Source: Trichaptum fuscoviolaceum (taxonomy: Eukaryota > Basidiomycota > Agaricomycetes > Hymenochaetales > Trichaptaceae). Taken from it: a stretch of DNA of 64,000 bases. Shown here piece after piece: positions 38,149 through 64,000 of the stretch. The stretch spans positions 2,497,040 to 2,561,039 of the forward strand of contig CAJSYZ010000009.1 of NCBI GenBank assembly GCA_910574455.1, given 5' to 3'. Within the stretch, counting starts at the first letter, position 1. Each line of letters opens with the position of its first letter. Position numbers and translations under genes: made by a program. The notes beneath the pieces are model-generated. The model was not told the origin of the DNA and did no database searches. It was given only the letters and a program-made list of their open reading frames with translations.

Positions 38149-38186
38149 ACTACATTTGAACTCAGATCATGTGAAAGAACATCCAA

Positions 38187-38236
38187 ATCATGGATTATCA
38201 TGGATTATCATGGATTATCATGGTTTATCATGAACA
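38187..38236 (+). repeat. ATCATGGATT decamer tandem repeat
   Basis: Three perfect copies of ATCATGGATT are followed by ATCATGGTTT and ATCATGAACA. This is the first part of the CATGA-rich subterminal block at the left end of the large element. Confidence 0.95.
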
Positions 38237-38277
38237 CACCATAACGGGATCATGAATTTTCGTGATTATTCATGATA

Positions 38278-38712
38278 TGGTGCCGTTCACTTAGAGACCG
38301 CTACTTTTGTGCACCCCAAATAGAAAAATCAAAAAAATAGTTATTTAAAAACCTTTAGTGGAAATGCGCCTTTTAGTGAAAGGAGCACTTCCACTAAAGG
38401 AATTAATTCTTGGAGCAAAACTGGCGAAGATAAATTTTTGGGGTTCACCCAAATTGGCGGAGTCCTCAACATTTACCTTTTATGGTATGCATTTGTCATA
38501 CAGCTTCCGTTTTCGGACACGCTGAGATAACTACTAACTTATTATTCCCTAATATATTTTATGTTAATCAACCTTATTACTGCAGATTTGAGCTTTTCAC
38601 AGAGTCCACACTAATATTCTCAGAAATTTTGCGAGTTCTTTTCTCAAAATTTTTTGCTGAGATCCAATTTGGCGGCTGCACAAAAGTAGTGGCCTGTAAG
38701 TGAACGGCACCA
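38278..38712. mobile_element. 435-bp non-autonomous MITE with TA duplication
   Basis: Terminal inverted repeats of 36 bp (38278-38313 and 38677-38712) begin TGGTGCCGTTCACTTA and match at 33 of 36 positions. A TA dinucleotide flanks both sides (38276-38277 and 38713-38714), as expected for a Tc1/mariner-type insertion. The interior has no long frame. It contains a second, perfect 12-bp inverted repeat (CCTTTAGTGGAA at 38352-38363, TTCCACTAAAGG at 38389-38400). Removing it rejoins CATGA-rich sequence, so it inserted into the subterminal region of the larger element. Confidence 0.88.
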
Positions 38713-39145
38713 TAGATCATGAAGTCACCATGAAGTTTGCCAAAATTGGTAGATAACAAATAAATACTAAAATTGATATTCTAAAACTGGATATGGAAAA
38801 CTTCAGGGACATCATTGATGACATCATGGTTTTCATCATGGTGCCATCATGGTTCTAGCGTTTGTCAGCAGAAGTTTTACAAGTTATTAATAAATTTCAA
38901 AATTTCTATTTCTCCGGATCATGAAGTCAATCATGATATTTCATGGTCATCAGATAGTGAAAGTGAGAGTTTAGTTATAGAATATGGAAACTGAAACTCG
39001 GCCATAGATAATTGAATATGATAAAGAAATTATTATAAAGAAACATTGAGGGCATCATGATGTATTCATGATAGACTTATGAATTAAACTTAGAGTGTGA
39101 CATCTCACTAGCACGCTCTCACTCTTCACGTCGAATGCGATCACA

Positions 39146-41040
39146 ATGGAGGGCCCTAACATTGGTGGGGCACCAGAAGACATACTTGCTCGGATTCGCA
39201 CACAAGAGCGGCAGCTTCTCGTACGAGTTGACAATGTTCTTACGCGTCAAAGAGGAGATCCAAACCGTATGGTGCAGGCACGACAGCGTGCTATGGAGCT
39301 TTCGCAAACTGCAGAGACTGTGAGTTGGTATAAAGACATATCATAATGAATTCTACACTAATTTACATCAATGCAGCATCAGCATGTATTCGCTGCTGAG
39401 GAGTATGGTATCTTTCAAGCATCCATGCAAGACATAATCAGGGAGCTCGATGTTGCCATATACGAAGCAAATGAACCATCAGATGAACCTCCTTTGCCAG
39501 TAACCCAGACAGTGCGAAGGGGCGGTCGGGGCCGACCTCAAGTGGAAATCGATGAGACGTTTCTGCGATCGGCATTTGAGGTGCGCGGCCCCAGTTACAT
39601 CGGTGATCTCTTGGGAGTCTCCGCAAGAACAGTTCGTCGTCGCGCGTTGCAGCTCGGACTTGTTGAACCCCAAGCTCCGGTGTTCAGCACTGTTGAAGGC
39701 GAAGACGGAGAACTCATCCACCTTCATACGACCTCCACAAGGCCTGTGTCCACCTTGACCGACGATGAGCTGATGGGGTTTGTTGTCCAGTCAACTGAAC
39801 TGTTTCCTTATGTCGGAGCGCGTAGCATCAGGTCCGACTTGCTAAACTTTGGACACCGTGTTCCATTGAAACGAGTGTCAGCTCTCCTCAACCGAGTGCG
39901 AGGTGTTCCCGGAGACTTCGGGATCAGGTTTATTGAACGTAGGGTATACAGGGTTGCCGGTCCGAATGCTCTATGGCACCATGATGGCCAGCATGGTATT
40001 TCTTCACGTTTTCATGCATTGAATAAGTTTGACGTTAGCATACAGGGCTCATCAAGTATGGTTTTGTCATACATGCCTTCATTGACGGGTACTCCAGACT
40101 CGTTGTTGGCATCCGTGTTAATAACAACAACCGGGCTCAGACAGTACTCGACCTTTTCACTGCCGCAATGCAGGTATATGGCGAGCCTAGGCGCATTCGA
40201 GGAGACCACGGCACAGAGAACCTTCGAGTTGCTGCATGGATGGAAGAGCGCAACGGGCCAGACAGCAGGTCATACATATGGGGACCGTATTATTCACCTA
40301 AACCTAATAGTGAGTAGACATCCTAACAATACATCTAATTTACTTCCTTTCTATAGGAGTGTCCATAACTCCCGTATCGAGCGCCTCTGGTATGACGTGA
40401 CAGTGGGATTCGGTCGGAAATGGAAGGAGATGTTTCAACACCTTGAAGCGCAAGAGGGACTTAACACTGCTTGCCGACCTCATAAATGGCTGCTTTGCCA
40501 CCTATTCCTTTCGTCCTTGAACGATGAGGCCAAACGATGGCAAGGTTATTGGAACAACCACATGATGTCAATTCGTGGTAAGTATTAATGATATCAACTT
40601 GCCAGTACACCTAGAACTCACGTATAACAGGTCAGCGCACCCATAGCCCACGAGAAATGTTCATGTTTGGTCACATCCGCGAAGGGGCGCGAGGCCTTCA
40701 CCCGACCAATGACGATGTTGCTGATGCCAATGAGTACGGGATTGACTGGGAAGCAATGAGAGAGAATCGTAACGGCTTCGCAGACGAATTGGTTAGGGAA
40801 GAGATGCGCAGGTACTTCGAAGGTGCTCCACAGGTTGAAGGTGCTCCACAGAACGCACCTCGAAACCTGGCACATGTCCCTTGCGAGCCTGCAGATTGTC
40901 CTTTAGAAGAAGATCAAGTTGCTCGCTTGGATGAGCACATTCGAGCTCATTTCCCGCAGTATACGTCCAATGTAGTGACACGCAGAGAGATTTGGGCTTC
41001 CGCTCTGGCAATATGTCAAGAGATGTCTGACGAATTTTGA
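39146..41040 (+). CDS. rve-type DDE integrase/transposase
   Basis: The presumed transposase of the large element. Five exons (39146-39319, 39377-39995, 40046-40286, 40357-40577, 40631-41040) sum to 1665 nt, encoding 554 aa, with all phases agreeing. The middle of the protein has a helix-turn-helix-like segment (SYIGDLLGVSARTVRRRALQ, about residues 140-160). The catalytic core follows. The first Asp is in NALWHHDGQHGL, then FVIHAFIDGYSRLVVGI, the second Asp is in RIRGDHGTENL, and the Glu is in SVHNSRIERLWYDVTVGFG. The carboxyl region (NDEAKRWQGYWNNH, PREMFMFGHI) is typical of this eukaryotic rve group. The reading frame is undamaged, so it may be active. The first start fits MEGPNIGGAPEDILARIRTQ; no better upstream ATG was seen. 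Confidence 0.9.
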
Positions 41041-41595: not shown

Positions 41596-44345
41596 CTAGA
41601 ATGGCGTAGGCCTATGTTGTACCAATGCATTGTTAGTCTTACTACCCGCTTCCACTATTGCTTGAGCTACTTGTAAGACAGTCGCTTCCTTCCACTTCAG
41701 GACAGCTATTTGATCTTCTGTATAAGGAGTGTTCGCGGTACCATAGTTGAAAGCCGTCCTGTCAAACAAAAGTCGTGCCTGTGTCAACCATGTCCTCGCT
41801 AAAGTGTCGATATTAGTCAAATCATTCGTAGGCCCCGCCGGCTCGCCCTTCTTATCACTTTTCCCAAGGAAGGCTTTCGTTCTGTGGAGTTCGCGCAGGA
41901 AGGGATCGGTCAAGGTCTGCAGTTGTAGGATAGCCTTCCACATCACTACATAACGATTATACGTCGAATGGAGTCCTTTGCGAGTCGTCGACACTTCTGT
42001 CCACTTAAGAGTATATCGAAAGATATCTTCATTCGAAAATGTTGCCGGTAGAAATTCGCGCCTTGATGTCAACATATCCCGTATTTCGTGGAACATCACC
42101 AGTCGACGGGCATTACGAAATGCAGTCTCTGTCGATCCTCGCTTCAAGTGTTGCAGTTCCGCGTTCTGATCTGGAAATGTCGTTTCAAGGAAGGCGATAA
42201 CATCGTTTGGTAAAGTCGTGGGATGCATCTAGTGTATATGGTTCAGTAAACGAATTGATCGCCAAAGAGTGGCTAGCAACGTACTCCGACAGATTCATTG
42301 AGTTCAGGAATGCGGTATACGCAAATGATATATACGGGCGCGCGTGTGGAAAGATTATAACGAGTGTTCAGAGAGCGAGTGGTCCCATTTGCTAAAGCTG
42401 CTATTAACATAAATGACGTGGTGAATGCTCCTTCTAAGGTGCATAAGTCCTGATATCCTGCCTCCGGACTTGTGTCTGGTCCGTATGATCCGTCCTCATA
42501 CAAATGACGTGTTGTAGCAACCATAAAATGGCTGTAAGGGACGCACGTCGCCAGCTTGACACGGATTGCATGGCTCTCTGGTAGCCGACTCAGGAGCCAA
42601 GACAGGTCCATCTGTGTATGGAGTTCGACCCAATTAAGGGTATCACTACTCTTCACTACACGAGGATGAAAGGACAGTACAGGTGTATCGTCCACGGCCT
42701 GTTTAATAGAAAGAAAGACGCCAATCGAGTTGTCATCGCCCAATCCGCGCTCGTCAGGTTGCATAATTATTTGATGCGTAGTAACCTCGCTCGCCCGCAG
42801 CTGGGGCACTCCTCTGTCACGGCTAACTTCTCCTCGCTCTGGTATAGCGACGCTTCCCCTCTGCATGGCCGGAAGAAGTGTTGCTGTTGCGTTACTGAGT
42901 GGCCGGTTCAGTTGAACAGGCGTCTGACGTGGGATTTGCACCTGTAGTGACGGAGGAGGCGCTTCCGTTGCATTACTAACTGCCAGAGCATGCTGCACTG
43001 GCAGGTGACTGAGAGCTTGCTGAGCAGCAGGGACCTGTAGGAAAAGTTCACAATAAGCTCCTTGTAAAGGCCTGCATTCATAGCTAATTTCATTTACCGT
43101 CTCCCTTTCCCGATCATTCATTCCTGTGGGCCTTGGACGTACAAATCTTCGGAAGACTGGTCGTCTAGTCCCCACTCGGCACACTGGTTGCGTTTGTGGC
43201 CCCGGAGTCCCTTCTTCCGCCACCATCCGCTCTGTCTCCGGGTTTGGCTGCGTTTGCGGCATGAGAGGCGTCGCCGCAGCTTCGATTCCGTCTGTCGTTG
43301 CAGGCTGTCCATCCATGATGGAATTTTGGGCCTCTTGGAAACGACTTTCAATAGTCTGTCTCAAGTCGGAGTATTCTACATTCAATGCATTCGAATGCTG
43401 CGTGCTCGAATCCTGGACGTTTTCGTTCGATGATCCAATCGAGTCATGGCCCCCCCCTGCTACTGTTATTTCCTGCGCGGGTATCAATGCCAGATTTTCA
43501 ACCTGCGTCACGCCAATCTCGCCGGTGTTCAATTGTTCCACATGCGAGTCTCCTTGTTCGGCATTATTGTTGTTCAAGCCCGTCAATCTCATTTCACCCC
43601 CCTCTAAATCATGCAGTCAGAACATCAGACAGGGAATGAAGGCCTTGTAACTCACCCAGAGTGATTAATCCCGTTTCCAATGCTCTAAGCAGAACGTCAA
43701 GTTCCGTTGGCATCTCCCCCAAAGCTGTCGCATTGACAATTGTTTGGTGCATATCAGAATCTGTACCTACGAGTCAGATCATTGTTCTCTATCTGAATTG
43801 GATACCTGTGTAACTGAACTCACCATTGCAGTTGAATACTGTAGGTTCTAGTAGCTCTGCCAATGTTCGTTCGTTTGCTTGTTGTCCTTTACGGGTTATC
43901 AGCATCGAGACCTAGACTGCAATGTTTCTACTCACCGACTTCTGTCTCGCTAATAAGATTTGCTCCCATTGGATCCGCATCTCCAACGTGTACATTCTCC
44001 GTGCCACCACTTAATTCGCCGCCTTGTACATTGGTCTGTATGTCTTCCGAGATCTGCAGTTCTGTCCGACAAATTTAGCCAGCACATTCAATGCGGACAT
44101 CGGTCTTTCGTACCTGTACCAACATCGTCACCATTGCACCTGGCCCCTGACTCGGTCAATGAGTCGCGCACTGGAGGCGTCGACGACTGCATATCCACTA
44201 TTGAACTGCCTGCTTCATCTCTCACATTTGGACCATCGGACATATTGAGAATTCCACCGTCGCCTCTTGCTTTCTTTCCGCCTCTACCTTTGCCTTTTCC
44301 TTTCCCTTTGAACCTTGTCTTGTAGACGCCCAACGGTCTCGCCAT
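41596..44345 (-). CDS. uncharacterised cargo protein with basic Lys/Gly-rich amino terminus
   Basis: Family not recognised. The ATG at 44345 starts MARPLGVYKTRF, followed by repeated Lys-Gly and RGGKKARG, a likely nuclear-localisation or nucleic-acid-contacting segment. The next ~300 residues, in several short exons (44345-43860) and a long exon (about 43592-42290), are polar and low in complexity (Gln, Thr, Pro, Glu). The conserved-looking part begins near 42700 (VKLATCVPYSHFMVATTRHLYE) and continues through a 57-nt intron at about 42287-42229 into a final 211-codon exon. That exon starts MHPTTLPNDVIAFLETTFPD, contains RYTLKWTEVSTTRKG and ends VQHRPTPF at 41596. The frame is open across the modelled exons. 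It faces the integrase gene convergently. Confidence 0.65.
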
Positions 44346-44537: not shown

Positions 44538-44539
44538 TT

Positions 44540-45700
44540 TCAACGAGGGTTATCCCCTTCTTTGATGCACAGCTTTCCAATCCGACTGTTTTTCGTAAAG
44601 CATCCTTCTCCGTCTAACGTCACGATCAGGCCAGTCGTATAACCGATTCTGGACCACCCCAAAGGATCCACGCTATCGAGTCAGCGATGCTCTTGTGAAA
44701 GATCAATTTTTAAGAAGCAACGCGATAATGCGATGCATACTTACATCCAAGAAGCTCTATCCGTAATCCCAGAGTGCATCCGCAGCTTATGGCTAGTTAT
44801 TTTCGGCGTTTGATGCATTACCTTGATGCATTCTAGAATGATCTTTTGTTTCTCCGCGGCTCTGCACATTCGTGAGTTCAATAAGTGCTGTATTCGTGCA
44901 TTAGGATTCATTTCCAGACTAAGGATGCATCAGATATTAGCACTGAAGTAATCTTCATCAACTTACCGACCAACTGCAATATTGCCCTCCTTTTCAGGCT
45001 AGCCCGATCGACTCGGATCTCTTCTGGTCATGGCCTCGTTCATCTGCGTCGTTCGTACTGGGCTATCGGATTATCCGCACGTCAGTTTAGTCTGTATTGT
45101 ATCCTTGTGTCTAAATTTACTGGTCTTCGCACTGGTCACCCCTCGGCGTCAAAAGAAGTCCTTCAATCCGCATGCCTCAAGTCCGAAGTCCATCTGTTTA
45201 ACTTTGTTTCTGCATGTCTTTGTGTTTGTTCTTCTTTCACAGCCGTCCCAACACCTCGTTTTCAGTCACGGACTTCTTCGCTGCCGTCCCGTGTCCTTGC
45301 ATTCCGATCATCACAGCATCTTCGAGTCAGTTTGTACATTGAAGAGAAGCACTTGCAAAGTTTCGTATCAAACACGCGCATTGCATCTATTAAGAAGGGC
45401 CGGACTTCGGACCCATGAATGCAGTTATATTTAGACTTGTGTCGCCGCTCAACCCACTCTCCGTCATCCTCTTGCTTGACACCTACGCCAATGCATTTGT
45501 TAGTCTCTATCTAGTCTTCCTGAACGTTGCATACACTCACTGAGTCTTTCGTACCTTGCATGGACACAGGAAGGCGAGCATACGGCCGGCTAATGGTCCA
45601 GGGTCTTTGATGGAAGAAGCACCCTCTTGAAGCAGTTCGCCGTCGTTCTGATTAGACTGATATAAGGTTTAATGAACTCCAATGACTCTACTCATCTTCC
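44540..45700 (-). CDS. uncharacterised minus-strand gene, exon model incomplete
   Basis: Two well-supported coding stretches lie on the minus strand. The 3' one (about 44999-44540) joins three introns in phase. It reads PEKEGNIAVGRLEMNPNARI, then RMCRAAEKQKIILECIK, LRMHSGITDRASWI and VDPLGWSRIGYTTGLIVTLD, ending EGDNPR before the stop. The 5' one (about 45640-45250) includes SSIKDPGPLAGRMLAFLC and, after an intron, DDGEWVERRHKSKYNCIHGS with VRPFLIDAMRVFD. I could not join the two stretches or find a convincing start, so this may be one gene with unresolved introns, two genes, or a partly decayed gene. The family is not recognised. Confidence 0.45.
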
Positions 45701-45785
45701 CATGCTCTTGAATAGGTATAGCTGTATAATCGGTATAGCTATGCACCGTGCGCAGTTGTTCTTTCGTTGAAGGTCCTTGAGCACT

Positions 45786-45792
45786 ATAAAAT
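45786..45792 (+). promoter_or_regulatory. TATA box of the 130-aa gene
   Basis: TATAAAA lies 113 nt upstream of the ATG at 45905 on the plus strand, with pyrimidine-rich sequence in between. A promoter role is inferred from position. Confidence 0.5.
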
Positions 45793-45904
45793 CTTCGTCA
45801 GTCTAACATACGTATTCTATCATCGCACTCATCTGCTCCTGTTCCACATACTCTGCCCCTTGCATCTCTCTTCTTGCGCCGCTGACAAAAAAAAACCCCT
45901 CGCC

Positions 45905-46412
45905 ATGGCCCACCTCACCGCTCTCGACCTTTCCAACTACTCTACGGTCGATCTGTCGGTCGACGTCGAGTTCTTCAACGGCATCCTCGCAGACAACTCC
46001 AGGCAGCGTGCGCGCCTTGGTAAGTTGGTTTGCGACATAGCGATGACGCTTCGGAATGAGATGGACGTTAGCATTTGGAAGATGCAAGTGTAGTAAGTCC
46101 ATATACTGACGTGTCTTCCATGATTATATGCTTACCGCAATGTCAGTCGAGAGGTTCACAGTAGTGATAGACACGCGACTGTTCGTGCGTTCGACCACCG
46201 GGGTCGGAGGATGGGAACCTTTCATGTCTATGATAAATACTCATGGGTAAGCCATTTCCTCCACTTCAGATAATCAAAGAATACCGTGACTCATCTCGAC
46301 TGTACAGACGGCTTCCATGGAAGCCACTACGTGGGTTGCGCATGGGCAGTACCAGCGCACATACCCATTGCGCAGCGTCCGGACCTTCTGGTGGGGCGTC
46401 GACATTGCTTGA
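45905..46412 (+). CDS. small uncharacterised cargo protein (130 aa)
   Basis: Family not recognised. Three exons (45905-46092, 46147-46246, 46308-46412) sum to 393 nt and encode 130 aa, and both 54- and 61-nt introns have GT-AG ends in phase. The protein starts MAHLTALDLSNYSTVDLSVD and has a helical middle (RARLGKLVCDIAMTLRNEMD). A basic segment follows (DRHATVRAFDHRGRRMGTF), and it ends with an aromatic stretch (RTFWWGVDIA). No signal peptide or membrane segment. A TATA box upstream and the exact frame closure support a real gene. A (TTC)n repeat starts 3 nt after the stop. Confidence 0.65.
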
Positions 46413-46415
46413 TGT

Positions 46416-46443
46416 CTTCTTCTTCTTCTTCTTCTTCTTCTTC
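46416..46443 (+). repeat. CTT microsatellite
   Basis: About nine copies of CTT immediately downstream of the stop codon at 46412. The antisense frame across it encodes poly-Arg and is not a gene. Confidence 0.95.
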
Positions 46444-47157
46444 GTCTAGCGAACCCTTTGATATCAAATGTATAATAGAGCAATCAAGCGTGCCTTCTGC
46501 GATTCCTTCTTCTTCTTTCGTATCTTTGTCATGCGCTGTATCTGTATCATTCTGTAAGCTTACATTTTTGTAATATAATGAAGTTTTCCATGAAATATGT
46601 CTACGGCAACGAGTATCAGTACATTGGTGATCGCCGGATATATTATATCTAATCATCTTACATATATCTGTGGGGGCCTTGTGTAGATCAGGGACAGGTA
46701 ATCCATCTAGATTCCTTGCACGTGCAAGAGGTGAATATGGTGGACGTCTGTCTATAAATAGACCTTGACTCTATGATCCCCACACCGCAGCTTTCCTAAT
46801 GCCTAATCCTCTAAATTCTAAATTGAAATAGCTTCCGCTGGTCAGCTCCTTGACAAGATAGGCTACATTGACTGATAGTGGCTTACTTTTCATTACAAAC
46901 AAATCTATTTTCAACTGCTGGACCTTTGTTTCATGCAGGGCATCTATTCCGTACATTTGGCGGAAACTTAGATTGCTCCACTTTTCAACCATCATATCTG
47001 TTCTTCACCTTATCAGGGTTCACACTGACATCCTTTCACGAATATTATGTTTATAAAATATCGCCAATTTGCAGTCTATTGTTTGGTCCCGGACCGCTCT
47101 ACATTGGAACGCTATTCATATCACTTCTATATGCCTCATACTCCTCGTCTTCAACCT
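46444..47157. other. spacer between convergent cargo genes
   Basis: A TATAAATA sequence at 46753-46760 (plus strand) has no supported gene downstream. A 99-codon plus-strand frame (46878-47177) overlaps the end of the next gene and is doubtful. Confidence 0.4.
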
Positions 47158-49911
47158 TCACACTTTCATATAGTTAGCGATGTACCGCGCCGCTAGCCCT
47201 CGAGAAGCCTTGTAAAGGCGCTTCGTTTCCATTTCACATCTCAACGCATTTCTCCACTTAGTAGAGGTTAGTGGATTATAACCTTTGTCTAATATGTCCG
47301 AGCGCCGTGACTGGAACCATTGCTCGCAGCGGGGTGTCCAGACACCTAAATTTAAACCACTTTCTTCAAATTTGTTGAAAGTCGGCCACCACGATGTCTC
47401 AGTCGGCGCTGCAGTGTTGGACGCTGTGTTGAACGGCCGTTAGTATTGTTCACCCCACATGATGTCGAACAGTCACTCACTTTCCAACCGATACAAGCCC
47501 ACATATGTGGCTAACTCCTCCAATGACATATCGTCATCGAAATACTCTCGCGTTACGCCGTCAATGACAATGGCGACTCGCACGACTTTTCCTGCCGCAT
47601 CCCATACTGGCCCATCCAACACAGCGAATTCATCGACCAGACCCTCTGCCAAACGCGATATTACACCCCCTCGTTTCACAACTGCTCGAGCGATCCTCTC
47701 GTCCTGGACAAGCTTCTTTTTCACAGCTTCATAGGCGACGTAGTCGGTGAGATCGAGAACGTGTCCTATCGGCCTTGGGCCCAGTCCAATTCGCGTACCT
47801 AGGAAATTCTCAACTTTGGGCAGAGTTCGTCCCTCGTTCTCTTTACTGATGCCCGGGATAGGCCTTAGCGTGTAGAAAGGGGTTTTTGTGCTAATAAAAT
47901 CGCGAGCGAGCTCTGTAAGAGATGTGGGCATGGAACGCATGCACCGCACAGCCGTACAAGGATCTCTCACTGCCAAGACCCAATCCGGATTCCTTTCTTC
48001 TTCGACGTGTTGTATGATGTATAACATGGTACCCATGTAGACTGCTTCCTGTATACGAACGGTAGAACGGCGATGCCCTAAGAACATCCGATTGTCTGGG
48101 TATAGATCACATAGTACGCTTGGAACCTCGCAGATGTTCACATCTGCATGCCCGACTGCATCAAGGTACATGACATATTGGATGACACTTGCTTCTGCTC
48201 CTGATGCCAATTTGTAGACCGGAGTTACGAAACCATCGCCTATGATGCGAAGAGCCTTCTGCAACTTGATCGGTGGTTTGGGAAACGTCTCGTATTTAGA
48301 ACCAGAGACGTAAGCATACCCGAACTGAAGCGTGATCAGTTCCAGTGCATCCATCACATTTTCGCCTAGATCACATTTGCCACGCGTTTCGATATCGTCC
48401 TGGGTGAACGAATTTGTGGCAAGCAATCGTTCGTCCAACTCGACTTCAACTCCATCCTTCGTGAGCCAACCAGTTGAAGTGACATTTGATTGTTCATCAT
48501 ATTCAAGCAGGTAATCGTCATATTCTTCGTCAATATCATGGGGTATAGTGTTTGGGTCCAATTCAAGACATAACTCCCATTCGTTTTCCACGCAGTTGTA
48601 CCATCGATGGCTGTCAGCGAACATGTACCAGGCCTGCTCCACGTTAGCTCTGTTGACTCGCGAACGGACAGGTCGCTGGCACTCATCCCTGTCCCATTCG
48701 TATACAATTGCTCCTCGCACTCCTGGACATTTAAATGCCTTCGCCGCCTCTTGACGTTGCTTCCACTTGTGGATTTTCCCTTCGTCCGCTTTGCACATTG
48801 CATTTTCAATGAGGATCTTTTTCATTTTAATCCATTCGTGAATGTCAATGTGGGGAGCTGTCAATGGTGGATACGCTGTGTTGGATGTCTCTTGTTCCGT
48901 TGGCTGGGACGTAACACATTCTACTTCGTTCACGTCTTCGACCTGAACCTCGTTCGTTTCAACCTCCTCAGAGTTCTTCGGCATGTTGAATGGGAGGGGC
49001 TTTGGAGGAACAGGTGGCGTTTTCGGTGGTGACAGCCATGCCTTGGCATCCGATATTTCCTTCTCGCTAGGACCATACATTTCCATCAGTTCCGGATTCC
49101 ACGTGAATGGGAGAGCGTTGTATGGACCCGTTCCCCATTCTATCCATACGGGAACGTTCGATAGAATGAGGGCGGGGAGCTTCGAACTGTACAACCATTC
49201 TTTCGGGTTTCGCAGTATGAGTCCTGATCGTCGAATTCCAAAGTCGCAAATGGAGGACATGCGAAGTTCGTACACCCACGCGTCATGCACCCCTGCCTTC
49301 TCTATCAAAGTCTCTATCCACGATTTGTCTAGAATGGGTTCCAAGTCCACTCCAGGTGCATAGAACTCCCATAGTGTCTTGCCTCGATGAAGGATTGCTG
49401 CCCACGCAGCGTGAGCAATGAGAGGCTGGAACGCATCCCTGGATCGTTGGATTGCGACTCGAGCCGCATGTGGCGAGGCGTATGATTCCATGTATCCTTG
49501 TAGATGGGGAGGAGCAGGGAATCTGTACTCTAATGGAACCATTGGTCGTGTCGTATTCTTCAATAGACAAAGCGCGACACCCATTAATGCTTGTTCTAGG
49601 GATCGCCAACGCGCAGCAAGCGTCCGATCCAAATGATATCGAGAGCCGATCTGGACGACAGGGAAATGTTCAATAGTTTGGGAGAGGCGTCCAAGAATAG
49701 CACCGGAGTAGTCCGGAGCTGCCGGAGTCGCACATAGATAGGGCAGTTCTCTAGATTCGTATACTGGCAGATGCAACCGTCGCAAAGGAGGTGTATGCCT
49801 CGGATCAATACGAGATGTGAACGGTCCTATGGCGTTGTATGCAATGACTATATTGCCGTCGATTCGCATGACATGTCGCCTAGTCGTGAACTCTTTTTCC
49901 CAGGTCGCCAT
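47158..49911 (-). CDS. 893-aa protein of an uncharacterised fungal family
   Basis: This resembles large hypothetical proteins that I recall as common in agaricomycete genomes; no function is known to me. The main exon (49911-47481) and a terminal exon (47408-47158), separated by a 72-nt intron, sum to 2682 nt. The start MATWEKEFTTRRHVMRIDGN at 49911 is preferred; an upstream in-frame ATG would add 5 residues. Recognisable family-type segments are YESRELPYLCATP, IEHFPVVQIGSRYHLDRTLA and RSRDAFQPLIAHAAW in the first 200 residues. An acidic central linker (EEVETNEVQVEDVNEVEC) follows. The terminal exon contains TSWWPTFNKFEESGLNLG, WTPRCEQWF and STKWRNAL. No catalytic motif was identified. A minus-strand TATA box lies about 240 nt upstream. 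The long frame is intact. Confidence 0.75.
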
Positions 49912-54020: not shown

Positions 54021-55518
54021 ACATCTATCACAGGAGGAAGGGTTGTTGTTCCATTTGAAGCAGATTTGCTTGTCGCCAGTGGGCGGTAGCCAGTTGCCCG
54101 TGGGGCCTTTGCGAAGGTATGTTCGAGTTGCACGGCAGTCTCGGCTGGTATGGCCTTCTTTGCCACAGACAATGCAAAACTCTGACTTTGCGTTGGTAAT
54201 GCCGCGTGGCGGCGAACGAGGGGCGGGCCCGGCTGAATAGCTTTGCGGACGAAAGGACTGAGATGATGATCCTCGGGAGGTCTGTGTATTGCGATCCATT
54301 GCCGTGAAGAGGTACTGTCGTTCATAATGCTGGAAGACATTTGTGTACCAGCGACTGATTGTGACTTCTCGCTGCACAAACATCTGTCGCATGTGGATGC
54401 AATACGACAGAAGCATGGGGAAATGATCCTGGAATTGCGAGTGCTTCTGGACAAGAGTGAAATGTGTTTGGAAGTCGTCCGCAATCTGGTTACGGTTGGG
54501 CCGTGAACAGAATAAACGGATGCATTTGACGAGATTATCCGAGGCTTGGTAGTAACCGAGGATATCCAGGTATTTCTCTCCATCGGTTGAGGCAGGTTTC
54601 TGAACGACCGAAAACTGACCTGGTGCGTCAGACGAAGCTATGAGAGTCTGGTGAGAGACAGGATCACGCTGAAATGTTGATATAGCTGATTTTGTGAGGT
54701 GATGTAGGGCAATATGAGTGACAAAGCCGTTGCGAAGAGCAGTTATAACATGATTAGGATAGTTGGTAACAGAGGGATTGAGGTTGCCATGTTCATCTAG
54801 GTCGTCAGGTAGTGACCCTATTGGCAATACAAAGTGGTTATTGCGCACACGACCCGGGGAGACAGGTCTCAGTTGAGGTGATGGTTCACGAGGAGGAGGC
54901 ACCAGAGGTTCAGGGTTAACTATGGCGGCAAAGGGCAATAAGTGACTGATATTAGAATTGATAATGACAAGGTAATTGGCTATGGCTGCAATGGCTATGG
55001 CTATGGCAATGGCTATGGCTGCAATATTGGCTATGGCAATGGCTGAGTAGCTTACCTGGATCAAGATCACGCAGTGGCTCGGGGTGTTGACGATGATGCT
55101 CAAATAAGTCGGCAATTCCGCGTAGTAAAGCAGCACGTCGTTCTTCACCAGCTTCATTGTAAAGCATGAGGTGGTCTTCATTATACAGATCCCTAAGAGC
55201 AGGTACAAATTGAGGGGGAATTGGATGCAAAAGCACGGGTGGCACAATGGCGGGTGGCACGGGTGGCATAGCCGGCTGAGGTGGATTTTCGTCGGGCAGT
55301 TGGTCTGGGTCTCTGCCAGCAGGTGGAGGTTGATTTTCCGGTGGTGCAGGCGGGTCTTGTGGCTGAGGTTGGGGAGGTGCGTTGTCTGGCGACAGTGCGC
55401 GCGAGTTGTCGCGTGAAGCGCGACGTGCTTGAGCAGCGCGGTTACGCGCCCGAGTAGCTGCGGCTTTGAGAGCTCGTGCACGGAAATCGATAGGCTTGCG
55501 AGCTTGTTTCGGGGGCAT
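53955..55518 (-). CDS. retrotransposon Gag-like protein with CCHC zinc knuckle
   Basis: Two exons (55518-55056 and 54919-53955) sum to 1428 nt, encoding 475 aa. The start MPPKQARKPIDFRARALKAA opens a basic region. A long Pro/Gln-rich segment follows. The intron (54920-55055) contains a GGCTAT hexamer repeat, and splicing joins DLDP to VNPEPLVPPPREP in phase. Near the carboxyl end is a zinc knuckle, CIVCGKEGHTSRDC, and a second cysteine/histidine cluster (CDRCTRVHACTVCGRTSH). Its role is RNA packaging. It overlaps the Pol frame. Confidence 0.85.
54978..55044. repeat. GGCTAT hexamer repeat in the Gag intron
   Basis: Interrupted copies of GGCTAT/GGCTGC/GGCAAT lie entirely inside the predicted intron of the Gag gene. 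Confidence 0.85.
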
Positions 55519-55533
55519 AACGCGAAGCAGGAA

Positions 55534-55680
55534 TGCAGCTTGAGAGTCCGATAGTTGTAGTGAGTGCGAGAGATGCGATGGCAAGTGGTGCAGCATCGCG
55601 CGACGCGCGATGCCAGCCTGAGTGCTCTCACGTGACCCTCCGCTTTGGTGAGTCGTTGGACTCCTTTCTGAGTCCTTTCG
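55534..55680 (-). repeat. split direct repeat A1
   Basis: 147-bp 5' terminal repeat of the Ngaro-like element, matching A2 (50697-50843). Its outer edge (CTTTCG) meets the coding sequence of the interrupted gene at 55681. Confidence 0.92.
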
Positions 55681-57576
55681 TTTGAACATGCATGGGTTGC
55701 AAACCGGAAGGCATGACATGTGTACCGCCAGATGCATTGCAGACACGACACTTGAGACTGACCCTAGATTTGGACATGTCATGCGGGTCATGCTTCCTGC
55801 GCCATGGTGCAACAGAACCGCACTTGTCGCACATCGCACGAGGAACAAGACCGAAAGGTCGAGTACTGTCTGAACCCCAAGTATAAATACGCCATCCGCC
55901 AAGTGCAAAGAGATTGATGCAAGCGTGACTCCCGACGTCACTGCCTATGAGATGTTTTTCCAGCGCGTGTTCAAACTTCTTTCGGCTGACATAGAAATCG
56001 TACAGAGTTGCCGTTACCAAATTCAAGGCCAAACTGGGATGAAACTTCACAGCGCCGAATGACATGATATGCTTCACAATGCCGCTAGTTAACACGGTAT
56101 CAGATCAAGGAAGCGCACGGAATCCGGGAGTTCATACCGTCCGCTAAGTGCGTGAATCGATTGCATTTGCGATGCATCATCCATGTACGATCCACAACAG
56201 GTCAGAACCATGGTGGCTGTTCGCTCGAAGAGGAAATCTGCCAATTCGTTTCCGAACAACCAGTCGAAGAACTGAATGCATGTTAGAGTAGGCCATATTG
56301 GTAAATATATGACTTCGGCTTACTTCACCGAAATCAGTAGCACCGTTGACAGTATGATAGATCAAACCCTCTGTGTTCGAATGGGAATTGACGATAAGAA
56401 GAACTCGACGGTAGCGATAGTAGCAGTTGCCATCGGAGAGGCGTCGAAGAATATCAGCACGCTTTGCCTCCAAATCGACATCCTCAGAATCAAACGGAAT
56501 TGATAAGTAGCACAACTGTGGAATATATAAGTCTAATCAACATGGAGTGAAATTGAACACACATACGTCGTCGGCACGCTCCAGATACGACAACTTCAGT
56601 TGTGCATGGAATACCATTCCGATGGAAAGGTTGTTCAATGAAGACAAAGAGAAATCGAGGATGAGAAGAGGTGATGTATTCACGCCTGACCTATAATCGC
56701 GAACCGTAGGCGACCTAAGAATAGTCCACTTGAGTGGTGGGGATTGGACACAATCAGCATACGGGAATTCAACTTTATAGGAAGATCGTGGAACCCACAG
56801 GATATGGTTTGTTCGTCCCGGGTGTCTGCGGCTTCTGGACGGTGATATTCCAACACGAGGGGCATACGAATTCGAAGCTACTCCGTGCATCGAAACGTAC
56901 ACATTCGGAACACATGACCAGAGGACATGGAGTTCTAGAACAAGTAACAAGATCACCACCATCGTGGCAAAAGCAACAATGCTGCAGGAAGCATGGTCAA
57001 ACATAGTCGGCTTAAGGTTTATCGCTGTCACTCACGTCGTCAGGCTGAACCTAGACAAGATGATGAAATAAGTATATCGAGAAGTAATGAAGACCGGTAG
57101 TAACTCACCTTCGTATCTCCCTCATCAAGTTCTAACTGTGCGTGATGCATCTTTTGCTGTTTCCGAGGAAGCCCTTCCGGCAACATGGCGGTGTCTCTGG
57201 GCCTCTTCAAAAGTGTACTAACCGTTGTGACCGGAGCATGGGAAAGAGCCAATGCATTGGTATCACTGCCAGCGCATACTACCGAATAGAACATGAGTAC
57301 AAAGTTGAAAGATGTAGGTATGTAGTACACACGCACCGACAGCATGTGTGGCCTGCATGTTCCCTTCTTGTGTACCTGCCGGATAATATATACGATAAGA
57401 AGCAAGAGGTGTAGATGGAATGGAGCTCACTCCGGATCGTAACGCTGCTGGCACCACGACCTGTAACTGAGGAGAAGTGAGGGCGACTTCGGATGAAGTC
57501 CAGACGGGGTAAACTCACGGGGTTTGTAAGGCGCACACCCCCCCGTCGATTTCGTTCCCGTCTTTCTGGGTGCCAT
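55681..57576 (-). pseudogene. H3-tail-like/PHD-finger cargo protein, split by retrotransposon
   Basis: The gene starts at 57576 with MAPRKTGTKSTGGCAPYKP, strikingly like the histone H3 tail ARTKQTARKSTGGKAPRKQ. Short exons follow (LQVVVPAALRS; MQATHAV; a 57270-57110 exon with LKRPRDTAML and LDEGDTK). A PHD-like finger is in the exon starting at 56981: HCCFCHDGGDLVTC, PLVMCSECV, FVCPSCW. Downstream are SPLLILDFSLSSLN (~56660), a segment with RRVLLIVNSHSN and later TMVLTCCGSYMDD whose His and Cys could be a CHAT/caspase-like dyad (speculative), then FEHALEKHLIGSDVGSHACI and a zinc ribbon (MCDKCG...KCRVCN, ~55830-55730). At 55681 the frame runs into the Ngaro-like element, which appends 16 foreign codons. 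The native end continues at 50452. Without the insertion the gene would look intact. Confidence 0.75.
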
Positions 57577-59277
57577 GAGGAGGAAGAGCTGAAAGTAAGA
57601 AACGAATGGATGGATAGATTCAACAGTGAGCCTACACCGAGTGCTTTCGCGCACGGTTCAGCCAAAGTTGACGAATGAAGGCAAAAAGAGGGAATTATAG
57701 TTAGAAAGAAATGGATGTGTAGATGGTTAATAAAGAGGAGAAGAAAACGAAAGGGAGATGTGGGATTGAGTGAAGTACAATTGGGTGCGGAAGCAAAAAG
57801 CCTATCTCGATTCAACACGTGTGGCGAAGGCAAATGTGGCGGAGGCAAAAAGGTAAGTACGCACGGGAGCAAAATGGCAAATACTTATGTAATCAAACGG
57901 TGGGCGTAAGACACTGGCAGAACGCCAACTTCAGCGTTCTTTCAACGTTGATCTCGACTGACATCGCGCGAAAGCACAATGCAGCCTGAGCTTCATGTAC
58001 TTCAACGCAGCTCGTATCCATTTCAGCGGTCCATGGTCTTCTTATCGCGAAGCACAATCAACGTCCGAGGTCGCTTCCACCTCGTGTGTTCCTGCAGGAG
58101 TCCTATTCTCGTCGTGCGGCTGAGGCCACCCGGACGCAGTCTTAGGACAGTGTTCATCCCTTCCTTCTTTCCTGGCTGAGGCCACCTGAACGCAGTCTTA
58201 GGACAGTGTTCATTATCTCCCGGCTGAGGCCACCCGGACGCAGTCTTAGGACAGTGTTCATCCCTTCCTTCTTTCCTGGCTGAGGCCACCTGAACGCAGT
58301 CTTAGGACAGTGTTCATTATCTCCCGGCTGAGGCCACCCGGACGCAGTCTTAGGACAGTGTTCACCCCTTTCCTTCTTTCCTGGCTGAGGCCACCTGAAC
58401 GCAGTCTTAGGACAGTGTTCATTATCTCCCGGCTGAGGCCACCCGGACGCAGTCTTAGGACAGCGTCTATTCCTACCCTTCGTTACTTGCTTGGGGCCAC
58501 CCCAGATTTCGTAGTCTGCCGCGACGTACTTATCATTCTGGTCGCACGGTCAGAGAACGTCTATTCATGACGCCGAGACACCATGTGAGTACCAAGGTAT
58601 GCGATAGGTACGAAACATGGGCCTTACGAAGGTTCCTATCTAACTGTCCGTCATTATAGGTCGAATGATGCTGTGGGACAGGTAGTAAGCGTCAAGATGG
58701 ATGTGTATGAGGGCAAACAGATGAGTGGTCATCATGAATATATATTGATGGTCGTGACTCACTTATAGGACACCGGAAGGTACAACGTTGCAGATGGGAT
58801 TCATAGGCAGTGCTACCACGAGGCTTGATAGATGGCAAGATTACACCTCACGCATCTTTCATTGGAAGTAAATATAGAAAGATGAGTGATACATCATTCA
58901 TTCTCCTTATGAAGGGTGCAAGTGACCTCTTCCATAGAAGAAGAACACGGGCCAAGTTAGCACCTCAACTTGTGTATGTTCTATTCTCGAGGTAGTTGAA
59001 TAGAACAGAAATGGTGTGGGAGGCCGAGGACTATAATCAGATGAGTTGTGCACACCTGACTCGTATGTCGCAAGTTCTTAATGCCGCACAGAATACCCCA
59101 CGACGACCGCGAGCGAACCTTAAAGTAGGTGGTCGCATGATCCGGTATGCATCAGAGACCACGTAAGTGGTAAGGAGAAGAAAGCCAGAGGTATTGCATA
59201 ATATATGTACCCTATGAAGTTCCAGTGTAATGTACATTAAATATCATTCAATTCCATTCTACCGTGCCCGAACGTCA
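57577..59277. other. spacer between cargo genes
   Basis: This contains the upstream region of the H3-mimic gene, the minisatellite at 58118-58464, and 58.5-59.27 kb, where only short frames (e.g. 58810-58995 plus) are seen. Confidence 0.45.
58118..58464 (+). repeat. higher-order minisatellite, 104-nt unit
   Basis: Seven copies start with GGCTGAGGCCACC at 58118, 58174, 58222, 58278, 58326, 58383 and 58431. Spacing alternates 56, 48, 56, 48, 57, 48. The first type continues CGGACGCAGTC and ends in CTTCC/CTTTCCT; the second continues TGAACGCAGTC and ends ATTATCTCCC. So the true repeat is a 104-nt dimer. Confidence 0.95.
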
Positions 59278-61192
59278 TCAACTTCTACCATACATTGTGG
59301 ACTGCTCGATGAACGTGGAATGAAGCCAAGCCTCAAATAATGAATCTCCATCTTCGACCTTGTCATTTAGCATGTTGCGCATGCCTTCATCAAACTTGAC
59401 TTTCATGGTGGAGAAACACGTACTGAACGACAATCCCTGTAATAGAGTCCTGTTAGTGGACAAGGCTGATCGTCTACAAAACTGAAATACGACATACCTT
59501 ATTCTTCATCAATGGTATCTCTGCAGGCGGTGCACTATTGGGGTCCAATTCCCCGGTTGCCTTCACCTCCTCGAATGGTTCGTAGTTGAATTCAATCTGG
59601 GTTTCGATAAGCCTGAGCACACGCATACTGACATATGATCTTACCTTTATCTTAGAAAGGTTCAATGGCAGGGTATAGCTACCGGTCACGGCCCGCACAA
59701 AGGCGCGAGATCGAACAAGCTCGGGTGTACCATGGTCGTGCTCCATCACAACGGGTGTGACACCAGGACCGTTGTACGCAGGTGGACCTGGTCGTTTTAA
59801 ATGTTCCCTGAACCGGCGCCAGAAAGCATGCATATGAAGAGCTTTAAGATCCATATACGAATTGTAGTCTGCGTCGTCGCTCTCCACTGTTAATTGACCA
59901 TCAGAGTCAGGATTGTAGTCGCCAAAGTCAAGTCGATTAATGATGTCCTGCGGATCTTGCACGTTATACAGGGACTGAATTAATCCCTTCCCTGAAAAAG
60001 GGTCGAGAGCCTGCGAGTACGAAGGTGAGTGCATTCAAATAGTCCGGGAGATAATCACTGACATTGGCAATCGATACTCCACCGTCTGAGTACCAGTTCA
60101 ATCCAACAGTGAACGCTTGGATCTCTGGTCTTTGCCAAGGAGCAATATGTTCCATGGTCTTGTGCATGACCAGTGATCTCAGCAATTGCGTGCGAACGAG
60201 GGGTTCAATGACACCGCTATAGCACGACGTCTAAATTCAAGAAGTTCGTAAATCCTATGAATATGCACGGCGGGATAGTTCAATCGACTTACGTCTAAAC
60301 CAGCTTGTATAAAGCAGCCAGCTAAACCATCATACCCACGAAGAGCATCTACATCACCATCCCAAGCTTTGATCAAATCCAGCACAATATGTAGTTCGAT
60401 ATCCACTGAACGTAGGAACTCGTCGTCGTAGCCAACACCTTGCTCCCCATCGAGAGATAACCAAAGGAGGACAGGAGATACTGGTAAAGGTGCAGATGCA
60501 CTTTTGATGATATGCAGCATGGTAAGGAAGCCAATGGCCTTGTGCTGAGCGGTCCGTAGAGGAGATATGGTATCAATGCCTGAGCATTTCGGCACCCAGT
60601 ATGTGCCTATCATGCTTCCTAATTCAGGAATAGAGGTAAGATGCTCTAAGGCTGCTATGATACTGGACCGCTCGGGCCCCACGAACACGCCAGCACCTCT
60701 GAGAACAATGAGCAAAGGCGAATAGACAAACGATGGAAAAAAGAAAGCTCACATATGGAAGTCCGCACCCTTTACAAGATAGCGAACGTCGAGGTAGCCA
60801 GGTGGTCTATGCGAGCAGATTGGGTGCAATGGATCTTCCAGATTGAGTTCGTATTCGTGATTGAATTCGTTTGCTGATTTTCCTTCGAAGTATGAAATGA
60901 CATAGTTGGCGAGGTACTCGCCCATAGGCTTGATCAAATCGGACGTGCAATTAAAAGACAGCACGGACTCCGGCACTCCTGCGCCACGTCTCACGTCCCG
61001 AACAAGCGAGCGCATGTCCGAGACGTCGAACGCTATAGTATCATCGATGCTTGGAAGTCGCGGGAGCCTGAATGCTTCCTTTGGCTGTTGACGTAGACAG
61101 GTCAGTTTGTGTTAGTCAATGAGCATTTATGGCTTACGCACCGACAGACCCCTAGGCGTTCTGGTTGGAGTACGCACGGCTGAAACAGATAT

Positions 61193-61229
<37 letters not shown>

Positions 61230-63630
61230 AGAGCAGGAGCAGGAGCAGGAGCAGGTGCAGGAGCAGGGGCAGGGGCAGGGGCAGGGGCAGGTGCAGGTGC
61301 AGGTGTGTTTACTGGTGCACCAATCGGCGGCGCCAACGCAGATCCAGCCTAGCAAGTATGTAACAAAGTGAGTATAGTTATAGATCAGATCAACTACCTT
61401 GGTGCTCACTGTAGTCCCTTGGTTAGCCGTCCGCCTCCGGATGCGCGGAGGTGGCTGCATTTCTAACGAACGGGCGTCTGACTCAGCTCTTGGTCTTGTG
61501 AGATCGGACGATGAAGTAGAAGGCTGCTGAGTCGGTGTTGTCTATAATGCAAGGAATGACTAAGGTGCATACAAGCCATTATTTTTCACTTACTGGCCGC
61601 CTGATTTGTCTGTCCCGGCCAGCGTTGATCAAACTATGAAAGTCAAGTGCACTCGTCGTAGAAGAGCTAGCTGAAGGTTCGTTCTGGGGTTATGTAAGTA
61701 GTGGGTCACTGCTTATCTGCGGAAATGGACAAATAGTCATTACTTACCGGCCTTGGCGCATTCAAATGCGATGTATCAGCAGTGCGCGGAGGCTCCGCAG
61801 CCTATGCCACAAAATTAACCTTCTACGTCTGGAGAAAACGAAAAGAATAGAGCTTACGCGTCTTGGCGGTGTAGCCCATCCATCATCATGAATGATATCG
61901 AAGTTGTCATCCATACCTGGTAACTCGTCGTAGGAATAGAGAGGAGACCCCTCCTCTGGACAGTCACCCATGCAATCACCGTTGTACTCAAGATTATCGA
62001 ACAAGGAGAATTCGGGTGGCATTTGTTCCTTGATGGCGCGTCCCACGTGAAATGCATAGCAGGCATGAGGCAGATATGCGCGAATGCGTTGTGCTTTATC
62101 TGCATCGTCAATGAAGCGCTGGACAGGAGCTCGCAGGTGCGTTTTTGCCGGACCTTCACGAATGAATGTTAGTGATATGTATGCAAGATGAAGAAGGCAA
62201 CTCACATATCATGAATATCTGATGGTTAGCAAAACTCGGAGTCTCGGGATCGGCAGGCGCGGTAAGGTAGTTCGCCATAGTACGTGGGCCCTTCGTCGTA
62301 AAGGATGTGATAGTGAATTCACCGGTAGGGATTGGCCTCGTAACCCACTTGAAGATACCATCATTGGCTGGGCGTTGGTTCCTATGCATAACATGGTAGG
62401 CGAGGGACATCGCATTCGTTCCATCATAGTTTGCAGGAAGGTCAAGGTCCCAGCCCTTGGTGCGAGCGGCTTCGACAAACTTGTCGGAAAGGAAAGTGAA
62501 AAACACCTTTCGTGACGCCGTAAACTCGGATTTACGAAACGTAAAAGACAAGCCATTATTATACAGAAGGTTTTGAAAGACCCCTTCCGCCAATGACGAA
62601 AGCTTTAGATCTGGTACGAGCTCGGCTCGGCCATTACTAAAGTCTTTACTAAGCTAACAGGATGTCAGTGAGTGAACAATATCACTAAGATTCTTGAGGT
62701 CGAACTCACATTGAAGGGTACTACCAAAGCTAGTACAGAATCGGTGTCAGGTAGCCGCTCTGTGGGCGGTGGAGCAGCCTGTCTGGAACCTCCTGCTCGA
62801 TTGCGATTCGGGGGGATAGACATTTGGGTGGAGCGTGTCCGCGACGAATTAGAACTTGCAGCCCTAGCATGCATACGCTCTGCGCTCTCCATGCGCTCAC
62901 GATTTACATTGCTTGCATCTCTAGGAATCATCCCCGCAAATGCGGCGCTTGCGGGAGCCATAGGACGAGCCACCGATGGTGGTAGGGGAATGTGAGGTCG
63001 AACAGGTGGTATGGGAGTAATGGAATTAGAGGGAGGTGGAACCAGTGCTACTGGGGGTGTAGACTGTTGACTAGATGGTAAGACAGTAGCCGGAGCATTG
63101 GAAGTCGAAGGGGCACAGATGTCGACGTGTTGCTGCCCACTGTCAGCTTGCCTTGACCCATGCAAGTCCCAAGGAGGTTGAAGTTCGGTGCATGAATGAG
63201 CACCAAATGGTTCACCACATATGCAAAGAGCATGAAGGCCAGTTGAACCATCATTTCTCTTTGAAAACGATTGTCATTGTTTATACCATTTATAATAGAT
63301 CATCTTCAACTCACCGGAGTAAACCCTGGACATTGAATCCGAGCACCTTGAATGCCATATCGCTTGCCAGCTGGATCCACACCAATAGCTCTGAAGCATT
63401 CTTCCATCAAGAAATGATCGGCGGCTTTGTCACCACAGAAGTCACATTTCTCGTATCCATCTAGTGGTATCTGGTATGTCTTGTGAGACTTGTTATGCTG
63501 TATTGTCTGCAAAGATATCGTGACATACCTGTTCTGTCTGTCCGTTTCTTAGTTTCGTGAACCCACCACAATGTCTTCCAAACAAGAGACATTTAAGACA
63601 CCACCGTCGCGGTGTCATAGGTGCAGCCAT
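59278..63630 (-). CDS. large HECT-like cargo protein with cysteine-rich amino terminus
   Basis: The outermost gene of the large element in this window. It starts at 63630 (MAAPMTPRRWCLKCLLFGRH). The first exons encode a cysteine-rich part (WCLKC, HCGGF, KCDFCGDKAADHF), a Pro/Ser/Ala-rich linker (63150-62710) and a conserved-looking exon (LAEGVFQNLLYNNGLSFTF, 62600-62210). A second acidic exon follows to about 61860, then short exons and a Pro-Ala repeat (61303-61194). The carboxyl half includes GVFVGPERSSIIAALEHLTS (~60690), LTMLHIIKSASAPLPVSPVL and VTGSYTLPLNLSKIKV. The last exon has LSFSTCFSTMKVKFDEGMRN and FEAWLHS. The TCF cysteine and surroundings resemble the catalytic end of HECT E3 ligases (HTCFN). 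I recall similar proteins labelled HECT-domain in agaricomycetes. A ubiquitin-ligase role is inference. Not every exon boundary is fixed. Confidence 0.65.
61194..61303. repeat. GGAGCA/GGGGCA hexamer repeat coding Pro-Ala
   Basis: About 18 hexamer copies. In the minus-strand gene it encodes alternating Pro-Ala in a linker. Another frame gives a Cys-rich peptide that I regard as spurious. Confidence 0.9.
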
Positions 63631-63709
63631 GCTGGGTGTAGAAAGGTGTCATGTATCGGGGTGAATGGGAGGAACTCAGCAGAGGCAGGGAATTTTGTGT
63701 GCGGTTGTG

Positions 63710-64000
63710 AAATTTTCATCATGAAGAAATCATGAATTTATTATGATGTATATAATATTTCTATATCAATTTCAACAATTTCATTAACTTGTTTACACAT
63801 TTTCAACTGTCGTTCATGACTTTTCATGGTGTGATCATGAATGAAACATGATTGTCTTGATGTTAAAGTTACTTTTTCTGCACTCGATATAAGAAATTTA
63901 AATTTACAAGTGATTACATAATCTGTTTGAGTTCATGACGACATCATGATGCCATCAATGTGAGAACATAATAATTCATGATAATTCATGAATATTCATG
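63710..64000. repeat. CATGA-rich subterminal sequence, right side
   Basis: AT-rich sequence with many TCATGA/CATGAA/CATGAT words (63718, 63730, 63816, 63823, 63836, 63843, 63933, 63944, 63978, 63988), upstream of the HECT-like gene. It mirrors 38168-39100 upstream of the integrase. It is cut by the end of the window. Confidence 0.8.

Follow-up and report, generated by a model that had tools for sequence, protein, structure and literature searches.

A predicted DDE transposon with apparently exchanged, possibly chromatin-directed cargo genes in Trichaptum fuscoviolaceum

The DNA analysed here is a stretch of 64,000 nucleotides from the basidiomycete Trichaptum fuscoviolaceum (the window; C9:2497040-2561039 in a genome of 59.1 Mb on 12 contigs). 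The comparison extended to the 40 kb that follow and to the surroundings of related integrases. Judged from its ends and its copies, the right part of the window (positions 38122-64000) is almost certainly a DDE transposon minus its last 125 bp. The explanation that we favour, and consider rather probable as a whole, is that this transposon, here called the C9 element, is moved by its own integrase and carries exchanged cargo which likely helps transposons to withstand chromatin silencing. The silencing role taken by itself is drawn from analogy and stays tentative.

Ends, integrase and copies of the element

The following features delimit the C9 element and its integrase (window positions).

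38116..38121: left copy of the target site duplication, GAGCTA
38122..38149, + strand: left terminal inverted repeat TTTGGTGGGCCTTATTGGACAGAATAA, at the exact break between the C9 and C11 copies, pairing imperfectly with the right end
38173..39080: left subterminal CATGA/TCATG block
39146..41040, + strand: DDE integrase/transposase, 554-residue model, five exons (39146-39319, 39377-39995, 40046-40286, 40357-40577, 40631-41040), reading inwards from the left end
63712..64000: right subterminal CATGA/TCATG block, extending past the window
64126-64131, just outside the window: right copy of the target site duplication, GAGCTA

Extension of the contig to the right revealed the right terminal inverted repeat, which ends at window coordinate 64125, 125 bp beyond the right window edge, and placed GAGCTA on both sides of an element of 26,004 bp. 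Read inwards, the right end is TATGATGGCTTTTATTGGACAAAAATAA, an imperfect inverted repeat with the left end. The first-pass annotation had proposed a cargo-carrying DDE transposon at 38160..64000. The transposon itself was borne out by the inverted ends and the 6-bp duplication, by further copies inserted at new sites and by a gene order common to seven of eight loci. Its edges were corrected because the C9 and C11 copies break elsewhere, with 6-bp repeats outside: the agreement between the two begins at window position 38122 and ceases after 64125, and their flanks differ. The length is inflated by nested insertions, without which the C9 element has a net size of 20,340 bp.

The CATGA-rich subterminal blocks annotated at both ends were confirmed by counting. 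CATGA/TCATG occurs 26 times in kb 1 and 26 times in kb 26 of the element, whereas window 1-38121 averages 2.1 per kb and has at most 10. Together the two terminal kb contain 52 occurrences; the maximum in 1,000 two-base-block shuffles was 17. The terminal word TTATTGGACANAAT had 21 matches in the genome and its reversed control had 1. At the left edge an open reading frame (ORF; window 37519-38148) runs into the element and has its last codons replaced by the insertion. It ends ...LQAELFGGPYWTE with the element and ...LQAELGSSAQNLIYL with the flanks joined.

The integrase model matched PF24764 (rva_4, E 1.4e-55) and PF00665 (rve, 4.1e-10), in agreement with the single rve-type integrase gene that had been annotated as reading inwards from one end. 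Its D/D/E motifs are WHHDG, RGDHGTEN and NSRIE. They are intact in the C9 and C11 integrases, which differ by three amino acids, and WHHDG/GDHG/NSRIE were also seen in the C4b, C2 and C6 integrases, the C6 copy being frameshifted. The NCBIfam matches to IS481 (3.1e-10; 40 bits, cut-off 224) and IS3 (1.1e-6; 28 bits, cut-off 160) were both below cut-off. No cysteine precedes the first catalytic D, i.e. the protein is without an HHCC domain. On these motif and profile data the integrase is related to IS481/IS3 and qualifies as an rve transposase without HHCC, as in IS3EU transposons. A homolog search gave 358 matches; among the 120 of them that were listed, the named sources are genera all of which we take to be Agaricomycetes.

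An integrase exon used as query gave 14 matches in the genome, and so did the PF24764 profile, in both cases at the same eight loci; these match counts are lower bounds. Six elements were delimited at both ends.

C9 element: 26,004 bp, target duplication GAGCTA
C11 element: 13,549 bp, target duplication CTTTAT
C5 element: 26,022 bp, perfect 6-bp target duplication
C4 element: 36,142 bp, perfect 6-bp target duplication
C4b element: C4:4921643-4944999, 23,357 bp, 7-bp flanking repeat CAGTATC
Short relative of the same family: 3.7 kb, target duplication TGGAAT, harbouring the C4 element

Five of the six have a perfect 6-bp repeat and one, C4b, the 7-bp repeat; CGCCCC and TTTATT are the two duplications of the C5 and C4 elements. 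The C4 giant element sits 10 bp inside the left-end terminal repeat of the 3.7-kb relative (about C4:4345242-4385116). Two further copies, C12 and C6, have the same exact left end as C4b within different flanks and were delimited at the left end only. The left-end word of C4b had 4 genome matches (control, 0), which correspond to the three left ends and one other place.

The integrases form four lineages, C9/C11, C5/C4, C4b/C12/C6 and C2. Copies at unrelated sites are about 99% identical in C9/C11, 99.7% identical along the longest block in C5/C4 and 99.3-99.8% identical across the 2.6-3.2 kb compared in C4b/C12/C6. The ends are alike in three lineages, with TTT(G/C)GTG... at the left and TAT... 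at the right. The C4b element contains the subterminal words ACGCGT, ACGTGT or ACACGT 15 times in its left 700 bp and 13 times in its right 500 bp; none of these words was found in the first kb of the C9 element. Since TCATGA and ACGCGT are both palindromes, this pattern suggests that an element protein may bind them in a lineage-specific way.

Conserved backbone and exchanged interior

Between the ends lie the following genes and repeats. The genes (G2, G6, G3, G4 and G5) are predicted models and bear out the presence of genes there as expected by the first-pass annotation, which had described G3 as an 893-aa gene.

38277..38712: insertion of about 435 bp resembling a miniature inverted-repeat transposable element, with inverted repeats of 41 bp, missing in the C11 copy
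41596..44243, - strand: G2, adjoining the integrase
44668..58478: cargo block (G6, G3, G4, minisatellite) shared with the diverged C5/C4 elements at 91-95% DNA identity, the retroelement excepted
45905..46459 (ends approximate), + strand: G6, a small gene convergent with G3
47158..49911, - strand: G3, about 893 aa
50453..55681, - strand: nested tyrosine-recombinase retroelement (DIRS/Ngaro-like) with reverse transcriptase (RT)- and recombinase-like ORFs and split direct repeats
55682..57576, - strand: G4, with an H3-tail-like N-terminus, a PHD-like finger, an NSH...CCGS region and C-terminal CxxC pairs
58117..58478: 48/56-bp minisatellite on the upstream side of G4, where the exchanged block has its edge
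59278..63630, - strand: G5, about 1,150-1,180 aa, at all eight integrase loci

G5 was found at the far end, on the strand opposite to the integrase, at eight of eight integrase loci. G3 and G4 lie between the integrase and G5 at seven of them, in the order integrase-G3-G4-G5 and in the same orientation (based on match coordinates for C4b, C12, C6 and C2). The expectation that other copies would share the gene order therefore held at all loci except one. Because G5 accompanies the integrase at every locus and G3/G4 at seven, integrase and G5 were regarded as the backbone. The C11 element is without G3 and G4, and its G5 match covers just residues 1-226 of the 484-residue query. A lone G5 fragment lies at C2:6373593, with no integrase match there. 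G5 evolves fast: the full C9 and C5 models are 33% identical, with a proportion of synonymous differences (pS) of 0.80. A HECT E3 ligase identity is not supported for this protein, as there was no profile support in Pfam or the Protein Data Bank (PDB). When PF00632 was run over the genome up to E 5, it matched at five loci elsewhere and G5 was not among the matches, hmmscan gave no HECT match, and the PDB gave none with the single sequence and weak dynein matches only with a profile. The arrangement VTG...P...TC is visible in G5 by eye only. A search of the genome with the main exon of G2 matched C9 and C11 only; inspection by eye showed a weakly similar gene at the corresponding place of the C5 element. 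The G2 pieces scanned had no Pfam match above cut-off.

The divergence of the interior was compared with that of the backbone. The C9 and C5 integrases are 65% identical over 512 codons, with a pS of 0.72 and a synonymous divergence (dS) of 2.5, i.e. with synonymous sites near saturation. The cargo block of the same two elements showed 91.6% and 95.4% DNA identity in the stretches flanking the retroelement, with a dS of 0.037 for G3 (20/560 synonymous sites) and of 0.087 for G4 (28/339). Since the cargo is near-identical while integrase and G5 are near saturation at synonymous sites, the interior was exchanged long after the backbones diverged. By these divergence values the cargo was recently exchanged between diverged element lineages.

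Relatives of the cargo were also found in a second context. G3 and G4 pairs of about 60% identity occur at six loci without a match to this integrase (C5:1780k, C12:1512k, C1:1065k, C5:1650k, C5:6182k and C4:907k). In a direct comparison, three of these loci showed 99.1-99.3% identity along 6.8-7.4 kb, and two of the three showed 98.9% identity across 14.5 kb. The order is G4-G3-G6, and the gene that follows has a SWIM-like motif whose match was below cut-off (E 0.051); at C12 a Ulp1-type gene is also present (PF02902, 2.8e-16 on a hand-joined piece). The G6 relative beside G3 is 29% identical over 91 aa (E 2e-8, single comparison). Terminal ends of this repeat were looked for and not found; because of its copy number it is probably mobile. 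For G3 the two contexts differ with a proportion of nonsynonymous differences (pN) of 0.25, a nonsynonymous divergence (dN) of 0.31 and a pS of 0.79, and by this measure G3 is under long-term purifying selection between contexts. In the second context, too, a minisatellite lies upstream of G4 (C12 about 1518k); it is homologous to the one in the window, with about 70% identity along 420 bp. Its family comprises 29 loci, most of them without a nearby G3/G4 match, and also occurs beside distant G3 relatives at C9:4996k and C11:1877k.

For G3, 15 relatives were found, with identity down to 35%, from lgn or ena assemblies. Distant G3/G4 relatives in the genome lie near contig ends (C1:5k, C2:70k, C2:137k, C3:27k, C7:5401k and 5420k, C9:279k and 4999k, C12:10k, 41k, 128k and 146k) and are partly paired about 18 kb apart (C7, C12), which suggests further elements or a subtelomeric family.

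Several insertions are nested in these elements. The retroelement has direct repeats of 206 and 147 bp and matched RVT_1 (0.022) and Phage_integrase (0.0037), both below cut-off; it interrupts the last G4 exon at a site that is empty in the C5/C4 elements. Its recombinase-like ORF at 50927-52297 lies within the same retroelement as the RT-like ORF. The insertion at 38277..38712 shows an apparent TA duplication. After removal of a 6.7-kb insert of the long terminal repeat (LTR) type the C5 element has a net size of 19,319 bp. This LTR-type repeat, with terminal repeats of about 825 bp, was found at C9:2577351-2584056 and is 98.5-99.6% identical among C9, C5 and C4; the C5 element contains one copy of it and the C4 element two.

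Possible role of the cargo and competing explanations

G4 is the cargo protein with recognisable features. A two-sequence profile gave 19 PDB matches with E <= 10, five of them below 0.05 and the best to AIRE (0.0026). We take 17 of the 19 to be PHD-finger proteins (AIRE, NSD1-3, ZMYND8, TRIM24/33/66 and CHD4); the other two are RBBP6 and DNMT3B. Several of these PHD fingers read the H3 N-terminus. The Cys/His zinc-binding pattern of the G4 finger is largely kept between contexts and partly missing in the second-context model. The predicted G4 start in C9 and C5, MAPRKxGTKSTGGCAPYK, resembles the H3 tail around K9-K14, and the C4 protein shares this start with an equal match of residues 1-38. 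When 5,076 ATG-started peptides in the DNA examined were scored for H3-likeness, the unspliced G4 starts of C9 (44) and C5 (39) ranked 1 and 2. The spliced starts scored 59 (C9) and 52 (C5), and 5,000 shuffles of the spliced C5 start reached at most 46. Taken together, there is moderate support for a PHD-like finger and an H3-tail-like start in G4. In the middle of G4 a candidate caspase/CHAT-like dyad was noted, NSH and CCGS being identical in two copies that are 57% identical overall; no Pfam or PDB match to a caspase/CHAT-like peptidase was obtained for this region. The cargo had been annotated as chromatin- and ubiquitin-related. Its chromatin part is retained on account of the finger and the H3-tail-like start, and its ubiquitin (HECT) part is dropped for want of profile support.

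In the mechanism that we propose, the IS481/IS3-like integrase would bind both the inverted ends and the lineage-specific palindromes next to them, which are TCATGA in this element and ACGCGT-like in another lineage, and would insert the element DNA at cuts staggered by 6 bp. As it stays with the integrase, G5 may be a helper protein, and perhaps G2 is another. G4, with its PHD-like finger and, in three copies, its H3-tail-like start, would act together with G3 and the small G6 on histone H3 or its readers. Such an action would parallel the presumed effect of TET/JBP cargo on DNA methylation in other transposons of fungi. Possibly, although we would not call it probable, the H3-mimic PHD protein, the 890-residue protein and the small partner form a mobile anti-silencing kit that is passed between unrelated giant transposons and hijacks or decoys H3-based silencing.

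Several observations weigh against this explanation. The anti-silencing part has as its basis a single PHD-like finger (E 0.0026) together with a short stretch that resembles H3. In Pfam the single G4 sequence gave PHD matches only below cut-off, the next-best peptide in the H3 comparison scored 38, which leaves the unspliced C5 start ahead by one point only, and a motif scan found no H3-like start in two second-context G4 copies. The G4 gene of the C9 element is cut about 20 codons before its stop by the nested retroelement, the displaced codons lying at about 50394-50452. For G3 neither a known fold nor a family was found, and its mean predicted local distance difference test score was 58. 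All gene models come from a gene finder and are predictions without RNA support. The left-end word of C4b does not recur at any right end among its genome matches, and the 1.5 kb upstream of the C2 integrase contained no recognisable end. Finally, the C11 element has an intact integrase and a target duplication despite having no G3 and G4, and so it moved without that cargo or lost it later.

This last observation also fits a transposon as described whose cargo is a passive hitchhiker, exchanged by recombination and without a role in transposition or silencing. Passive transfer of TET/JBP genes between transposon families was put forward by Kojima in the part of PMC12730594 that concerns them, and at the end of the exchanged block is a minisatellite, which may be a recombination spot. 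Against mere hitchhiking stand the G3/G4 order kept in seven of eight elements and four integrase lineages and the purifying selection on G3 between contexts (dN and pS as above). We regard a passive cargo as rather unlikely. An improbable alternative is that a chance nesting produced the gene set, the cargo block being a separate transposon of the SWIM-like/Ulp1 kind that sits inside an IS3EU-like element. G4-G3-G6 relatives do adjoin a SWIM-like motif and a Ulp1-type gene in the other dispersed repeat (three loci, about 99% identical), but G3 and G4 keep the same place and orientation in seven of eight elements at several divergence levels, and no Ulp1 match was found in those of the C9/C5 models that were scanned.

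The remaining explanations carry very little weight. A Polinton/Maverick or virus-like element would share the rve integrase and the 6-bp duplication, and is highly improbable: no PolB, ATPase, protease or capsid Pfam family was found in the models scanned, which may miss exons, and NCBIfam points to IS481/IS3. Practically negligible is a host gene cluster next to a lone integrase with CATGA-rich flanks, in view of the target duplications, the exact ends, the near-identical copies at unrelated sites and the insertion that replaces the last codons of the ORF running into the element; the second copy, whose target duplication is a different one, refuted it.

Comparison with known transposons

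Cargo-carrying giant transposons of fungi are mostly discussed for the tyrosine-recombinase Starships, giant transposons of ascomycetes that have also been reported from Tremella (PMC13066641). Like the present elements, Starships are large, carry cargo and have a recombinase gene at one of their ends. The end gene here is an rva_4/rve DDE integrase, in place of a tyrosine-recombinase captain. A Starship was rejected, the tyrosine recombinase noticed belonging to the nested retroelement. Polintons/Mavericks have an rve integrase and a 6-bp duplication in common with the C9 element (PMC10045372 for the duplication) and differ from it, since no PolB, ATPase or capsid match was found in the models scanned. 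Mutator-like elements and their relatives resemble it, according to the sections of PMC6446971 concerned, in having PHD/SWIM zinc fingers and accessory or anti-silencing ORFs, and the second context contains a SWIM-like motif. The PHD-like finger is here in a cargo protein and not in the transposase, and the second context is not assigned to Mutator-like elements. Kyakuja-Dileera-Zisupton (KDZ) and other TET/JBP carriers are also fungal transposons in which an epigenetic-type gene is common to superfamilies (PMC12730594, in part); the transposase here is rva_4, and the cargo differs.

The closest resemblance is to IS3EU. IS3EU families are described, in the excerpt of PMC10045372, as having TA..TA termini and usually 6-bp duplications, without HHCC. 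The element shares with them an IS3/IS481-related rve transposase without HHCC, the 6-bp duplications (five of the six delimited elements) and the inverted ends. In rust fungi all TET-positive IS3EU families have TET/JBP between the transposase and an opposite-strand alpha-kinase, as stated in the extract of PMC12730594. The present element is arranged similarly, as its cargo is framed by the transposase on one side and a gene of the opposite strand on the other, and cargo genes pass between transposon kinds in both cases. It differs in that the right ends begin TAT... inwards and the left ends TTT..., i.e. TT and not TA in all three lineages seen. Because of these left termini we call it IS3EU-like and did not assign it as an IS3EU member. 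Furthermore, the far-end gene is not recognisable as an alpha-kinase and the cargo is G3/G4/G6 and not TET/JBP; no Pfam match to TET/JBP or alpha-kinase was found among the gene models scanned. Lineage-specific subterminal palindromes and a net size of 19-20 kb (two elements, a figure for the present elements only) were also noted.

The first-pass annotation knew of no described basidiomycete element with this gene set. For the gene set this holds, as no description turned up in those parts of the literature that were searched; for the kind of element it does not, since cargo-carrying IS3EU elements of rust fungi are on record (PMC12730594, in the extract cited). IS3EU sequences have been counted in Ganoderma as well, cargo not being mentioned in the passage concerned (PMC8955403). 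We take the element to be IS3EU-like and of a kind already known, although its cargo, its far-end gene and its left terminus are different. In this genome a DDE integrase of IS481/IS3-like type appears to carry elements of 13.5 to 36 kb whose backbone is conserved and whose interior can be swapped. Should other rva_4 integrases also belong to elements of this sort, many mushroom genes annotated as 'integrase core domain' would mark cargo vehicles. The exchange of chromatin-type cargo parallels that of TET/JBP and makes a transposon-borne anti-silencing function directly testable.

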